Positions 33,471-39,832 of a stretch of DNA of 64,000 bases are shown piece after piece. A program made the translations under genes and the position numbers. This stretch comes from Solibacillus sp. FSL H8-0523. Its GTDB lineage: Bacteria > Bacillota > Bacilli > Bacillales_A > Planococcaceae. The notes beneath the pieces are model-generated. The model was not told the DNA's origin and ran no database searches. It saw nothing but the letters and a program-made list of their open reading frames with translations. Numbering within the stretch: the first letter of the stretch is position 1; each line of letters begins with the position of its first letter. The DNA is taken from positions 1 through 64,000 of the forward strand of contig NZ_CP150291.1 in assembly GCF_038051985.1 (NCBI RefSeq), in the 5' to 3' direction.

Positions 33471-33594
33471 ATAATTCTAATTAAATGAGCGTTCTCACAC
33501 GAATTCAGTAAAATGGAATTGTTTGTTTTGTTGTCTATAGAGCGTTGTGATAAAATGTAAAGCATTGACTATAAAGAGAGAAGGAGTACTTCTA

Positions 33595-34230
33595 ATGTCT
33601 GTGCCATTTATAACAGTAGAAGGTCCAATAGGTGTTGGGAAGACCTCATTATCTAAGGCCGTATCACAAACGTTTAATTATCACTTATTAAAAGAGATTG
33701 TAGATGAAAATCCATTTCTAGGTAAGTTCTATGAAAATATTGATGAGTGGAGCTTTCAAACAGAAATGTTTTTCCTGTGCAATCGTTATAAGCAACTGTC
33801 TGACATTCATCGGACTTTAGATGAGCAACATTCAGTTGTGGCCGATTATCATATTTTTAAAAATTTAATTTTTGCGAAGCGTACGTTAAAAACTGCGGAG
33901 TATGAAAAGTACGAAGCCATCTATAAAATTTTAACAGCCGACATGCCAAAACCGAATATGGTCATTTATTTACATGCAAGCTTAGATACGTTAATGCAGC
34001 GAATTGCGATGCGAGGTCGTGAATTTGAGAAAAACATTACACGTGAATATATGGAACAACTAGCAAGTGACTATCATGAATTTATTGGTCATTTCGAAAA
34101 GATGCATCCTGAAATTCCGGTAATTCAGCTAAATGGTGACGAGCTTGATTTCGTGAAAAGCGAAGAGGATTTACAGTATGTTTTACGACTAGTAGAACAA
34201 AAGTTACAACAAAGGAGTTCGCATCAATAA
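33595..34230 (+). CDS. dgk: Deoxynucleoside kinase, deoxyguanosine kinase type
   Basis: Salvages deoxypurine nucleosides by phosphorylation to dNMP. Start chosen at ATG 33595 after GAAGGAG; the longer frame from 33547 has no ribosome site. The protein is 211 aa. Visible are the P-loop EGPIGVGKTS, the DENPFLGKFYENIDEWSFQTEMFFLCNRYKQL substrate region, the catalytic segment VADYHIFKN (in place of DRS), and the lid RGREFE. Its stop overlaps the dck ATG by one base (TAATG), so the two are coupled. The dgk/dck split follows B. subtilis order and is inference. Confidence 0.9.
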   Translation: MSVPFITVEGPIGVGKTSLSKAVSQTFNYHLLKEIVDENPFLGKFYENIDEWSFQTEMFFLCNRYKQLSDIHRTLDEQHSVVADYHIFKNLIFAKRTLKTAEYEKYEAIYKILTADMPKPNMVIYLHASLDTLMQRIAMRGREFEKNITREYMEQLASDYHEFIGHFEKMHPEIPVIQLNGDELDFVKSEEDLQYVLRLVEQKLQQRSSHQ

Positions 34231-34898
34231 TGAATTTACGAGAAAAATACAATATTCCTGCTAATGCGGTCATTACGATTGCAGGGACAGTTGGTGTTGG
34301 AAAGTCAACAATGACCAAGGCACTAGCGGACGCATTAAAATTCCGCACATCTTATGAGAAGGTTGATACAAACCCTTATTTAGATAAATTTTATGACGAC
34401 TTTGAAAAATGGAGCTTCCATTTACAAGTCTACTTTTTAGCAGAGCGTTTTAAGGAACAAAAACGCATTTTTGAATATGGTGGCGGCTTTATTCAAGACC
34501 GTTCAATTTATGAAGATACAGGTATTTTTGCGAAAATGCATTTCGATAAAGGTACAATGACACCAACTGATTACGAAACGTATACAAATCTTTTTGATGC
34601 CATGGTGATGACACCGTACTTCCCACACCCAGACTTACTTGTCTACCTAGAAGGTCCGATTGATGATGTAATTGGCCGTATTCAAGAGCGCGGACGTGAG
34701 ATGGAACAGCAAACACCACATACGTACTGGGAAGAGATGCACGGTCGTTACGAAGAATGGATTAACAACTTCAACGCGTGCCCAGTGTTACGTATTGATA
34801 TTAACGATTACGATCTAATGAAAAACCCAGATCAAGTAGAAGATGTTGTCGCACGCATCGCCTATATGCTCGAGCAAACAAGTCATTTACGTAAATAA
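34230..34898 (+). CDS. dck: Deoxynucleoside kinase, deoxyadenosine/deoxycytidine kinase type
   Basis: The 222 aa partner of the kinase just upstream, which phosphorylates dA and dC in the family. The P-loop is AGTVGVGKST, followed by VDTNPYLDKFYDDFEKWSFHLQVYFLAERFKEQ. The catalytic DRS motif is IQDRSIYEDTGIFA, and the lid is RGREMEQQT. The ATG shares its first base with the dgk stop. A strong terminator follows, closing the two-gene operon. Confidence 0.93.
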   Translation: MNLREKYNIPANAVITIAGTVGVGKSTMTKALADALKFRTSYEKVDTNPYLDKFYDDFEKWSFHLQVYFLAERFKEQKRIFEYGGGFIQDRSIYEDTGIFAKMHFDKGTMTPTDYETYTNLFDAMVMTPYFPHPDLLVYLEGPIDDVIGRIQERGREMEQQTPHTYWEEMHGRYEEWINNFNACPVLRIDINDYDLMKNPDQVEDVVARIAYMLEQTSHLRK

Positions 34899-36272: not shown

Positions 36273-37538
36273 TTATTTTAAGTTAGCAGCTTGATACGCA
36301 GCAAACTTTTTGTCGTCGAAACGCTTTTCCCATTTCGCGATAACAAGTGTTGCTAATGTGTTACCTACTACGTTTACAGCTGTACGCGCCATATCTAAGA
36401 TACGGTCAATACCTGCAATGAACGCTAAACCTTCAAGTGGAATACCTACAGAGCCTAATGTTGCAAGAAGTACAACGAATGATACCCCTGGAACACCAGC
36501 AATCCCTTTAGATGTCACCATTAATACAAGCATTAATGTGATTTGTTCCATGATTGACAGATCAATACCGTACATTTGCGCAATGAAGAGTGCCGCAATT
36601 GCTTGGTAAAGTGTCGAACCATCGAGGTTGAATGAGTAACCTGTCGGAATAACGAATGATACGATATCCTTTGGCGCACCCATTTGTTCTGTTTTTAACA
36701 TAATACGAGGTAATACCGTCTCAGATGAAGAAGTAGAGAACGCTAATAATAACTCGTCTTTAATCATACGGATTAAATTGAAGATGTTAATACCGAAGAT
36801 TCTTGCAGTGATACCTAGTACTACGATTACGAAGAAGAACATCGCCGCATAGACTAAAATCGCTAGTTTCCCTAATGGTATTAGGGAGGATACACCAAAC
36901 TTGGAAACGGTTACACCGATCAGTGCAAATACCCCAATTGGTGCGAACTTCATTACTAAGTTCGTTACCCAGAACATGGCGTCCGCCGTTCCTTGGAAGA
37001 AGGCCAGTACTGGTTTTCCTCGTTCACCAATGGCCGCAACACCTAAACCAAAAATAACCGAGAAGAAGATAATCGCAAGCATATCGCCTTCAGCCATCGC
37101 ATTGATAATGTTTTTTGGAACAATATCTACGATAATTTGGAATGTGCTCTTTGCTTCTTCTTGTTCAGATGTTTCTACATAAGAAGAAATATCTGTTTGT
37201 TGCAGCTCGTTCATATTGATTCCAGCACCTGGCTGAACGACATTTGCTGCTAATAAACCAACAACAATCGCAACTGTTGTAATAACCTCAAAATAAATAA
37301 GTGTCTTACCACCAAGACGACCTAATTGTTTCATGTCACCAGTTCCGGCAACACCAACGATTAATGTCGAAATAATAATCGGTACAACGATCATCTTAAT
37401 TAAATTTAAGAAGATATCGCCAAAAGGTTGTAAGTATCCTTGTACGTCTGTGTTACCATAGAACACAGCACCTACAATAACACCTAGAACTAAACCAATT
37501 AAAATTTGCATGGCTAAGCTAATTTTAAACTTTTTCAA
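36273..37538 (-). CDS. Dicarboxylate/amino acid:cation symporter (DAACS)
   Basis: A 421 aa glutamate/aspartate or C4-dicarboxylate transporter of the GltP/GltT/DctA type. Family motifs are visible: the serine-rich re-entrant loop AFSTSSSETVLPRIM, the second hairpin GYSFNLDGSTLYQ, and TSKGIAGVPG. Eight hydrophobic segments plus two hairpins are expected. The exact substrate cannot be read by eye. An AGGAGG site precedes the ATG. It lies 82 bp downstream of a GlnL-like response regulator on the same strand, with a TTTTGT direct repeat in that gap, so control by that system is likely. Confidence 0.92.
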   Translation of the reverse strand: MKKFKISLAMQILIGLVLGVIVGAVFYGNTDVQGYLQPFGDIFLNLIKMIVVPIIISTLIVGVAGTGDMKQLGRLGGKTLIYFEVITTVAIVVGLLAANVVQPGAGINMNELQQTDISSYVETSEQEEAKSTFQIIVDIVPKNIINAMAEGDMLAIIFFSVIFGLGVAAIGERGKPVLAFFQGTADAMFWVTNLVMKFAPIGVFALIGVTVSKFGVSSLIPLGKLAILVYAAMFFFVIVVLGITARIFGINIFNLIRMIKDELLLAFSTSSSETVLPRIMLKTEQMGAPKDIVSFVIPTGYSFNLDGSTLYQAIAALFIAQMYGIDLSIMEQITLMLVLMVTSKGIAGVPGVSFVVLLATLGSVGIPLEGLAFIAGIDRILDMARTAVNVVGNTLATLVIAKWEKRFDDKKFAAYQAANLK

Positions 37539-37585
37539 AAGTAGTTCCTCCTAAAAAATGATATTCAGGGCAAGCCTAAATTAAG

Positions 37586-37615
37586 TGTATAGGATGGTTA
37601 CAAAATCCGACAAAA
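37586..37615 (-). promoter_or_regulatory. Symporter promoter with TTTTGT-N4-TTTTGT direct repeat
   Basis: Read on the minus strand, TTTTGT CGGA TTTTGT occupies 37615-37600, just past the response-regulator stop. It overlaps a plausible -35 (TTGTCG) placed 16 bp before -10 TATACA (37591-37586). From memory, the B. subtilis GlnL target is a direct repeat of this form and spacing. Confidence 0.6.
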
Positions 37616-37620
37616 TCCGA

Positions 37621-38499
37621 CTAGTTTACCTTGCTAATAATTTCTGAATATAAGACTTGAATGAATTTTTTAATATTTACCTTTGCTTTGCGTTGCTCAT
37701 TATTTTCGATTTGTTGCATTAAATAACGAATATCCGTTAAGTCAAAATAGCGTGGTGTGTAGTATTCAAATTCTGCATTTGTATAATCAACAATACCGAG
37801 ATTGGCTAAGTTAATCATCGCTGCCAAAATCGTTCGTCGTACACGTTGCTCGATTGCTTTAATTTCCTTTGCAATATCATCAGGTGTTGTTTTTGTTAAC
37901 ATCGCCACGCGCTCGTATACCTCTTTTAAAGGAGGTAGTGGGGCGATTTTATGCTTTTCAATTAATAGTTGCTCCGTAATTTTAATAATATCTTCACTGC
38001 CAATCTCTGCAATAATACCCATATCATTTAAAATCGTTTGAATATGATCACGCGTCGTCTTTTTTGTATGTTTAATTTCAGGAACCTCGAAATTACTCAG
38101 TGATTGGCGAATCGCTTGTAATGAATTTTTTAAACGATATTGTTCTGTGGTACGCTGCAAGACCATTTGCACCTCAATTTTATTAATTGGCTTATGAATG
38201 AAAAATTCAATGCCTTTTGAATAGCCTTCCGCCACCATTTCTTTATTGACGACCTGTGAAATCATAATAAAGTGCCCCTCAAAGCCACTCTTTTGTAAGC
38301 GTTCAATTGTTTCTATACCGTCTAAGTTTGGCATTAGTAAATCGATGAGCACAAATTCAGGCTGCATCATTAAGATTTGCGGGATGGCATCTATACCGTC
38401 CTTTGCTTCGCCAATCACTGTGCCAAGCTCGCAGTCGTTAATAATCGCACTAAGCATCACACGGCTAGCACGATCATCATCTACGATAAAATAACGCAT
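37621..38499 (-). CDS. Response regulator, GlnL (YcbB)-like
   Basis: Start chosen at ATG 38499 after AAAGGAG, giving MRYFIVDDDRASR; the upstream extension overlaps the kinase gene. The protein is 292 aa. Residues 1-120 form the receiver domain, with the acidic pocket DDD, the phospho-acceptor in VLIDLLMPNLDG and lysine in FFIHKPI. About 150-290 match the YcbB-type output domain of GlnL (HIQTILNDMGIIAEIGSEDI, IKAIEQRVRRTILAAMINLANLG). In B. subtilis GlnK/GlnL induces glutamine uptake and glutaminase genes. The ATG lies one base past the kinase stop, so they are coupled. Confidence 0.83.
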   Translation of the reverse strand: MRYFIVDDDRASRVMLSAIINDCELGTVIGEAKDGIDAIPQILMMQPEFVLIDLLMPNLDGIETIERLQKSGFEGHFIMISQVVNKEMVAEGYSKGIEFFIHKPINKIEVQMVLQRTTEQYRLKNSLQAIRQSLSNFEVPEIKHTKKTTRDHIQTILNDMGIIAEIGSEDIIKITEQLLIEKHKIAPLPPLKEVYERVAMLTKTTPDDIAKEIKAIEQRVRRTILAAMINLANLGIVDYTNAEFEYYTPRYFDLTDIRYLMQQIENNEQRKAKVNIKKFIQVLYSEIISKVN

Positions 38500-38500
38500 A

Positions 38501-39760
38501 TTAAAGCTCCTTTCGTAAGTTCCTCGTAGGAATATGGACGACAAAGCACGTTGTCGTATCACTTGATACGGTAATTGTTCCCTGTAAGTTATCAATTATT
38601 GATTTTGTATGGGATAAGCCAATCCCCGTAGAAGCTTGGCCTAAATTATTGAATTTTGATGTATAGCCAACATCGAAAATAATCGGAAGCAGGGCTGGTT
38701 CAATTCCGACACCGTTATCTTCTATAATGAAGGTTGTCTTATTTTGTTGAATTGATACACTCAGTGTAATGAATCCCCGTGTTGAAATCGCTTCGACGGC
38801 ATTCGCCATTAAATTATTAAGTATCGCAAGTAGCGCAATATGCTCCTTTGTTTTAAAGTCTTCAGGGCAAATCAGAGTAAATGCAATGTCCTTTTTTAAG
38901 TGCAGCGCATAGTTTTCATTCGCCTCAACGATAAAGCTAAGTAAATCCGACAAATAAAAAGTTGTTTTATATTCGGTATTCGTAATTTTAGAGAGTCCAG
39001 CATAAATGCGTTCATGGTCTTTTTTGATTTCATGCATTTCCTGTGCAATTGTCAGTGCCTCTTTACTAAGTAGTGTATCAAGCGGTTTTATTTTTTTGTA
39101 CAGTTGGTAGCTATTCGCGGTTAGCTGTTCGACTTGGTTCATTGATTTTTGAAGATACATCGCTTCGACATAGAGCTCCGAATGAATTGCCATCAGTTGT
39201 TGCAGCTGTTTTTTTTGTTCAGTGAGTGTAATGATGCTATATACACCAACAACAAAGAAGCTACGTAGCAAGCCAACCACAATAAAAATTAAAAAGGAAG
39301 AAAACGTTTCCTGCTCGGCGGATAGAAGGAGTTCCGTTGTGACATGCTCGTTTGTATTTGAAATAATCTCAAAAGCGGTCCCACATAACCCGAGTAGTAG
39401 CGGCTGCTTTTTGAGATCCTCTAATCGAATGAGTTTAAAGCACAGTGCATAGGTTAAATAAAACACACCCGCTGGAAGATGTTCGATTAATTGAGGAACA
39501 AATGAATCATTATAGAATAGGGTATCTAATAGCGAACGTTCAATGACTACGAATACACCTGTTAATATGCCAGTCCAAACAATAGGTAATGGACGGATTA
39601 ATAAAGCAAAGAAGAAGATGATGCTACCTAATCCGAAGCGAAACGGGACATCTTCAAACGGCATGATTTTAATTTCGCCAAAAAGCGCGGTCATTAAGGC
39701 GATAAGCAGCATAAAAAAGAGTGATTTCGTAGTTTTTATGCGCGGTTGTGTTGTTTCCAA
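38501..39760 (-). CDS. Membrane sensor histidine kinase, GlnK (YcbA)-like
   Basis: Start set at TTG 39760, eight bases after AAAAGGTGG. The 419 aa protein has about six N-terminal membrane segments (residues roughly 10-185) with little extracytoplasmic sequence. A coiled linker follows, then the phospho-acceptor region MHEIKKDHERIYAGL. The GHKL ATPase shows N box LAILNNLMANAVEAI, G1 box DNGVGIE and G2 box STGIGLSHTKSI. It has no PAS or HAMP domain that I can see. It heads a likely kinase-regulator-symporter operon. The ligand is unknown; glutamine or a dicarboxylate/acidic amino acid is a fair guess from context. Confidence 0.83.
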   Translation of the reverse strand: METTQPRIKTTKSLFFMLLIALMTALFGEIKIMPFEDVPFRFGLGSIIFFFALLIRPLPIVWTGILTGVFVVIERSLLDTLFYNDSFVPQLIEHLPAGVFYLTYALCFKLIRLEDLKKQPLLLGLCGTAFEIISNTNEHVTTELLLSAEQETFSSFLIFIVVGLLRSFFVVGVYSIITLTEQKKQLQQLMAIHSELYVEAMYLQKSMNQVEQLTANSYQLYKKIKPLDTLLSKEALTIAQEMHEIKKDHERIYAGLSKITNTEYKTTFYLSDLLSFIVEANENYALHLKKDIAFTLICPEDFKTKEHIALLAILNNLMANAVEAISTRGFITLSVSIQQNKTTFIIEDNGVGIEPALLPIIFDVGYTSKFNNLGQASTGIGLSHTKSIIDNLQGTITVSSDTTTCFVVHIPTRNLRKEL

Positions 39761-39832
39761 ACAAATAACCACCTTTTGAAAGATAAGAAGTACAATTCGC
39801 ACAAAGGAAACTTTGTAATGAAATGTGTCTTA

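Follow-up and report, generated by a model that had tools for sequence, protein, structure and literature searches.

A GlnK/GlnL-like two-component locus of Solibacillus with a conserved 10-bp tandem box and a predicted acidic-amino-acid symporter

We analyzed the first 64,000 nucleotides of contig NZ_CP150291.1 of Solibacillus sp. FSL H8-0523 (assembly GCF_038051985.1), hereafter the window, in which three co-directional minus-strand genes encode a membrane histidine kinase, a response regulator with a receiver (REC) domain and a YcbB output domain, and a symporter of the SDF (DAACS) family. The locus is likely a conserved variant of the known GlnK/GlnL system; its output is likely glutamate uptake, and it shows an unexpected apparent kinship to Spo0A. 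We consider it probable that the three genes work as a GlnK/GlnL-family switch for the uptake of acidic amino acids, in which the regulator would bind a tandem box and activate the symporter's promoter. The proposal is built on features read from the sequence (gene order, domains, the site, its conservation, its 10-bp phase, the spacing to the −10 element, co-occurrence with the regulator and the carrier's residues), and DNA binding, activation, phosphorylation and ligand are predicted from them. An earlier note on this DNA, the original prediction, had described a direct repeat between regulator and symporter as a GlnL-type target with a rewired output; its observation of the locus and the repeat is confirmed, and its interpretation is supported in part.

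A tandem box conserved between regulator and symporter

The sequence TTTTGTCGGATTTTGT lies where the original prediction had placed a repeat, between regulator and symporter (37600–37615, minus strand), and is the sole mismatch-free match to TTTTGT-N4-TTTTGT in the window. With two mismatches allowed, this AT-rich DNA holds 31 matches against 26.6 expected; because the loose pattern is about as common as chance, the evidence for the repeat is its conservation and not its rarity. A scan of the whole genome, suggested with the prediction, found six exact matches, the five besides the copy at the locus being inside called open reading frames (ORFs; four copies) or between convergent gene ends (one copy).

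The predicted conservation in orthologous loci is borne out. All 16 genus genomes searched have a YcbB regulator followed by the symporter (85–100% identical), with the repeat, at one mismatch or fewer, in the same place five bases past the regulator's stop codon. For a spacer alignment, 168 loci from overlapping sets were entered, L125–L151, L154–L174 and L192–L194 being left out as other types; 163 were usable (regulator and symporter 40–900 bp apart) and gave 120 distinct spacers. The tandem of GTCGGATT occurs in 116 of these 120 (score of at least 12 of 16), against 0.54 expected per 120 from single-base shuffles of the same spacers, and the box period is exactly 10 bp in 116, any other period appearing in at most 3. 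The consensus, TTTGTCGGATTTTGTCGGATTTTATAAGTCCCCCGTATAAT, has two complete boxes, an incomplete third one 10 bp further along and then a −10 element whose −35 place box 2 takes; the flanks of the tandem are much less conserved, and the TATAAT-like −10 lies 17 bp from box 2. The TTTTGT-N4-TTTTGT reading was therefore correct, yet the conserved letters extend into its spacer, and the unit is better read as GTCGGATT-NN-GTCGGATT, a 10-bp tandem.

The tandem also follows the regulator gene across 151 family genomes. With at most one mismatch, it is present in 68 of the 88 genomes with a YcbB match (87 of these matches over the cut-off), at the locus itself in 62, and in 4 of the 63 genomes without one (Fisher p about 1e-19, not corrected for kinship), while a reversed control pattern occurs in 3 of the 151. 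On conservation and co-occurrence with YcbB we reject a chance match as the source of the repeat.

In the window, the likely −10 (37589–37584) is 17 bases past TGTCGG (37612–37607), and the claimed overlap of the repeat with the −35 place holds. This layout suggests that an activator stands in for an absent −35. A generic promoter scan of the stretch did not list the locus promoter and finds as many promoters here as in shuffles, and no Rfam RNA or riboswitch matched at the gathering threshold in the four stretches searched near the site and before gltS. Outside the genus, 39 of 102 distinct spacers have a CcpA cre-like site after the promoter, against 0 of 14 within Solibacillus; by this difference, carbon control in Solibacillus seems to have been lost or never to have been present.

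Carrier and sensor

The target is a DAACS carrier, as predicted: it has an SDF domain, and its binding residues make glutamate or aspartate the likely substrate. By alignment with solved relatives, all 94 symporters compared keep the residues equal to GltPh D394, R397, T398 and N401, and all 94 have the proton-type residues T92I/V, S279E, M311L and D405N (GltPh numbers). According to PMC12668577, D394 and R397 make a carrier prefer amino acids to dicarboxylates and acidic to neutral side chains, proton-coupled carriers are marked by M311L, D405N and a change of T92 to A, L, I, V, M or F, and S279E is a putative proton site. The window's symporter, with its SDF domain, equivalents of R397, D394 and N401 and replacements at T92, S279, M311 and D405, has the same substrate and proton-type residues as the GltP/GltT proton-glutamate symporters, and because these residues are kept we read it as a likely proton-coupled glutamate/aspartate symporter.

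The first 180 residues of the kinase form a hydrophobic region in which a simple hydropathy scan shows three or more clear membrane stretches. Within this N-terminal region E29, K31, P34, R41, R75 and R166 are conserved, the charged residues E29, K31, R41 and R75 being family-wide. All 97 SDF-type rows (the window counted twice) have R at position 166, in the last membrane stretch; the other types compared have R there too, except for an H in all 7 glsA-glnT kinases and in 3 of 15 kinases linked to ATP-binding cassette (ABC) transporters. There is thus a hint that R166 may meet an acidic side chain, and because the H rows probably share one origin, the correlation is a hint and no proof.

An old linkage and its known relatives

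By hidden Markov model (HMM), the regulator has a receiver domain (PF00072, 65.6 bits, cut-off 30.2) followed by a YcbB domain (PF08664, 130.3 bits, cut-off 27.4, E 6.9e-38), the arrangement that defines the YcbB/GlnL type, and the GlnL-type output domain of the original prediction is thereby upheld. In a tree built from 80 regulators of the class, in which B. subtilis itself is absent, the window's regulator belongs to a clade of 29 rows, all of them SDF-linked (support 99/79), and the nine glsA/glnT-linked rows lie elsewhere. The symporter adjoins the regulator in 29 of 30 further family loci, L023 having an amino-acid ABC transporter nearby instead, and is downstream in 79 of 80 loci of another set, the remaining one (L269) ending with its contig. 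SDF linkage also appears on the GlnL side of the tree (L150, L172 and L174; divergent in L151 and L157), among them a relative (L127) whose consecutive genes encode symporter, aspartase-like lyase, kinase and regulator, and two genomes (G273 and G417) carry the glsA-glnT type and the SDF type together. SDF linkage is thus the rule in the loci examined, in a clade separate from the glsA-glnT clade, and the comparison argues that the SDF output is an old and repeated choice; the 'rewired output' of the original prediction stands as to its target and falls as to a local rewiring of GlnL.

The window's pair shares with B. subtilis GlnK-GlnL (YcbA-YcbB), which controls glsA-glnT, a membrane kinase, a REC-YcbB regulator, a transporter target and the direct box at the target promoter; TTTTGT-N4-TTTTGT is taken to be the published B. 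subtilis GlnL site. It differs in its SDF target, its separate clade, a box extended to GTCGGATT and R166 for H in the kinase, and as a strict orthologue of the B. subtilis pair it fails on two counts, since it neither groups with glsA-glnT regulators nor adjoins glsA-glnT. The genome has the glsA and glnT relatives that the prediction proposed to look for, in the form of glutaminase (glsA-like) matches at 1.81 and 1.91 Mb and AGCS genes at 2.30 and 3.19 Mb, and these are not side by side. Before them we found scattered two-mismatch matches and no exact TTTTGT-N4-TTTTGT, and they were rejected as extra targets. The second of the two glutaminase-like matches (L316, G000:C1:1807769-1808464) has one in-frame stop and is apparently broken.

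Linkage of a GlnKL-like pair to an aspartate symporter has been in print since 2008, and the linkage itself is therefore less new. In the accessible text of PMC2358912, the B. cereus pair BC1742-BC1743 lies beside BC1739-1741, encoding a proton/sodium-aspartate symporter, aspartate ammonia lyase and malic enzyme, and the authors asked whether the pair senses aspartate. The B. cereus arrangement differs from ours in that the pair adjoins this three-gene catabolic operon with a catabolite-responsive element (CRE), and we found no description of an operator at BC1739-1743 in that text.

Other YcbB types carry related boxes. Eight of the nine glsA/glnT spacers carry TTTTGT-N4-TTTTGT with at most two mismatches, and among 12 ABC-linked loci (L322–L333) the best three-unit GTAGATT-type site stands just before the ATPase gene in 10, the others being L328, with a tied best, and L329, whose gene start is not resolved. 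Because the scoring rule for these loci was fixed with the other types already known, the result is support and no independent test. The GTAGATT sites keep the 10-bp phase; the polar amino-acid ABC operons that they precede have the YcbB two-component pair at their end. Four further YcbB pairs (L129, L130, L132 and L161) are near genes of TAXI-TRAP type carriers (NMT1_3, DUF1850 and DctM families).

Sites away from the locus

In most genus genomes the tandem is confined to this operon. Apart from the locus, matches with at most two mismatches, among those listed for the 16 genus genomes, are no commoner than the reversed pattern; we therefore reject a larger regulon and claim no second target in the genus. 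The family genomes hold 21 off-locus matches to the tandem, of which 13 were examined. Four of them, from Lysinibacillus, stand before a symporter paralogue (79–80% identical to the window's symporter). Three, in Psychrobacillus (L344, L346 and L348), precede a gltS gene about 480 bp downstream (TIGR00210, 368.8 bits, cut-off 310.75); in those genomes the symporter adjoining the regulator is a fragment at L345 (residues 194–312) and L347 (151–206) and whole at L349, and at L346 the stretch from box to gltS retains a recognisable remnant of a decayed symporter gene, its first 24 codons (E 8e-5). Read most simply, gltS in Psychrobacillus has come under the promoter of the symporter. The SDF carrier and GltS can both take glutamate, which makes glutamate the leading candidate for the signal. 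Of the remaining matches, five in Lysinibacillus (L335, L336, L341, L342 and L343) lie between a branched-chain amino-acid carrier gene and LysM-NlpC/P60 genes, and one (L350) is inside a gene.

The effector domain and Spo0A

A structure comparison with the full-length regulator model was filled by receiver domains, and for this reason the effector (residues about 147–292) was folded alone, with 66 sequences (predicted local distance difference test, pLDDT, 94.7; predicted template modelling score, pTM, 0.89). With VIA-align, the model matches Spo0A on DNA (1lq1) at Z 11.9, with a root-mean-square deviation of 2.8 over 108 of 112 residues and 17% identity, and Spo0A structure 1fc3 at Z 11.2, every other chain reaching 3.8 or less. 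The box points the same way: its core in the window and the consensus, TGTCGGA, is one base off the 0A core TGTCGAA, so that an exact 0A core is absent, and of that core Spo0A contacts G2, C4 and G5 according to PMC3485338. The gap in Z, the near-full coverage and the likeness of the boxes lead us to support a kinship, and the YcbB effector appears, from its model, to have the fold of the Spo0A DNA-binding domain and to be a distant relative of it. A genomic Spo0A_C match under the cut-off (E 1.6e-4, in G025) falls exactly on a YcbB regulator, and in a profile search between YcbB and Spo0A 24 of 146 pass E 1 against 5 of 2920 shuffled decoys.

Several results count against this kinship. A Z under 13 may be chance for helical bundles in VIA-align; Foldseek with the effector model returned nothing under E 1 and no Spo0A among the 50 matches listed; and Spo0A_C scores 15.3 bits on the window's regulator (gathering score 25, E 0.021), where a spectrin model outscores it, and matches 5 of 30 regulators, each below the cut-off. 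By hhalign, YcbB against Spo0A has a probability of 14%, and the best E-value of the profile search equals that of the best shuffled decoy. The two systems have in common the predicted effector fold, the TGTCG core and repeated boxes; they differ in that the effector's likeness stays under the Pfam cut-off, in a sixth box base G for A, and in a short uptake regulon as against sporulation. The open literature that we searched, which leaves subscription papers and InterPro aside, yielded no published link of YcbB or GlnL to Spo0A or 0A boxes, and PMC4395418 calls the YcbB motif a novel helix-turn-helix.

Proposed mechanism and alternatives

We propose that the kinase senses glutamate and/or aspartate, probably via its membrane region, and phosphorylates the regulator at D53. 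The regulator, whose Spo0A-type effector domain would read a box one base from the 0A box, would bind the tandem GTCGGATT boxes head-to-tail with box 2 in the −35 place. Once bound, it would activate a promoter without a good −35, and the GltP-like proton symporter would be made. The system would act as a one-target switch, because most genus genomes have the site nowhere but at this operon. Several observations weigh against the proposal. The −10 element is a poor match to TATAAT; 4 of the 120 spacers are without the tandem; and 20 of the 88 YcbB genomes are without a strict tandem, many of these carrying GTAGGATT variants. The carrier, at 629.2 bits, falls under the cut-off of 638 of the NCBIfam GltP equivalog, which sets it apart from the GltP/GltT symporters, and has S at the GltPh T314 position. 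The symporter remnant before gltS is clear in only one of three cases (an 8-residue piece at L344, none at L348), and the five sites beside a cell-wall LysM-NlpC/P60 gene do not fit uptake.

The locus might instead be a plain GlnK/GlnL system whose kinase responds to glutamine, the symporter being one more member of the glutamine regulon. The same domains, a box of the same type as at the glsA-glnT loci and a sensor region with most conserved residues in common with glutamine kinases would fit, and the B. subtilis pair answers glutamine (PMC2743287 and PMC7060608). Against it stand the regulator's place in the SDF-linked clade, a carrier predicted to take acidic amino acids, the swap to gltS in Psychrobacillus and, weakly given its probable single origin, the difference at kinase position 166; we hold this reading to be improbable. 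We give still less credence to the idea that Spo0A itself acts at these boxes as at 0A boxes, the adjoining regulator being incidental. It would explain the one-base distance to the 0A core, in which the contacted bases are kept, and Spo0A_C is present in 54 of 61 class genomes, the window's own included, but the sixth box base is almost always G in the spacer alignment, and the tandem tracks the YcbB gene, with the 4 of 63 family genomes noted above, where Spo0A was not scored per genome. A C4-dicarboxylate switch, with a DctA carrier and a sensor of malate, succinate or fumarate, is the most remote of these readings. The SDF family includes DctA, and the NCBIfam DctA models are second best on the symporter, but at 458.6 and 413 bits they stay under their cut-offs of 513 and 570, and the residues for an amino group and an acidic side chain (D394 and R397, with the meaning assigned in PMC12668577) are kept throughout; the carrier is unlikely to be a C4-dicarboxylate carrier, and the malate and succinate option of the original prediction is disfavoured.

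Features of the locus and its neighbourhood

Start codons, stop codons and ribosome sites of all three genes were read directly (Table 1). The first ORF start for the kinase is at 39802, and the TTG is preferred because of its ribosome site; one base separates the kinase's stop codon from the regulator. Farther along, at 33547-34898, are two adjoining tandem genes, putatively deoxynucleoside-kinase-like. The order dnaX, kinase, regulator, symporter, RraA-like gene and two deoxynucleoside-kinase-like genes recurs in related genera.

Table 1. Positions of genes and promoter elements at the locus
Feature	Position	Strand	Remarks
Membrane histidine kinase, GlnK-like, 419 aa	38501..39760	−	TTG start after AAAGGTGG; HATPase_c; phospho-acceptor H243 in HEIKKD
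Response regulator, REC + YcbB (GlnL-type) effector, 292 aa	37621..38499	−	ATG start
SDF/DAACS symporter, GltP-like; predicted proton-coupled glutamate/aspartate carrier	36273..37538	−	TTG start after AGGAGG
Box 1, GTCGGATT	37614..37621	−	First base shared with the end of the regulator's stop codon
Box 2, GTCGGATT	37604..37611	−	Occupies the −35 place
Partial third unit, GTAACC	37596..37601	−	10 bp further; third-unit T and A conserved in the alignment
Likely −10, TACACT	37584..37589	−	17 bp after the −35 place; placed from the 116-spacer alignment

Discussion

Beyond this locus, we lean towards a wider reading, in which the YcbB effector would be an offshoot of the Spo0A DNA-binding domain and the whole family would read 0A-like boxes (TGTMGRNTT), arrayed in tandem every 10 bp, at promoters that lack a −35 and serve amino-acid uptake operons (SDF, GlsA-GlnT, polar amino-acid ABC and GltS). 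A sporulation regulator and nutrient switches would then share one module, and Arg or His at kinase position 166 would separate acidic-amino-acid from glutamine sensing.

The analysis ties a widespread and unstudied regulator subfamily to a clear target, a box and a likely ligand, and it gives the YcbB output domain a predicted origin. The Psychrobacillus box, which now stands before a different glutamate carrier, offers a natural experiment on the purpose of the switch. If the link to Spo0A is true, what is known of Spo0A (the bases that it reads, the replacement of the −35 and the filling of tandem sites) may be used for amino-acid switches, and cross-talk between sporulation control and amino-acid uptake would become testable.

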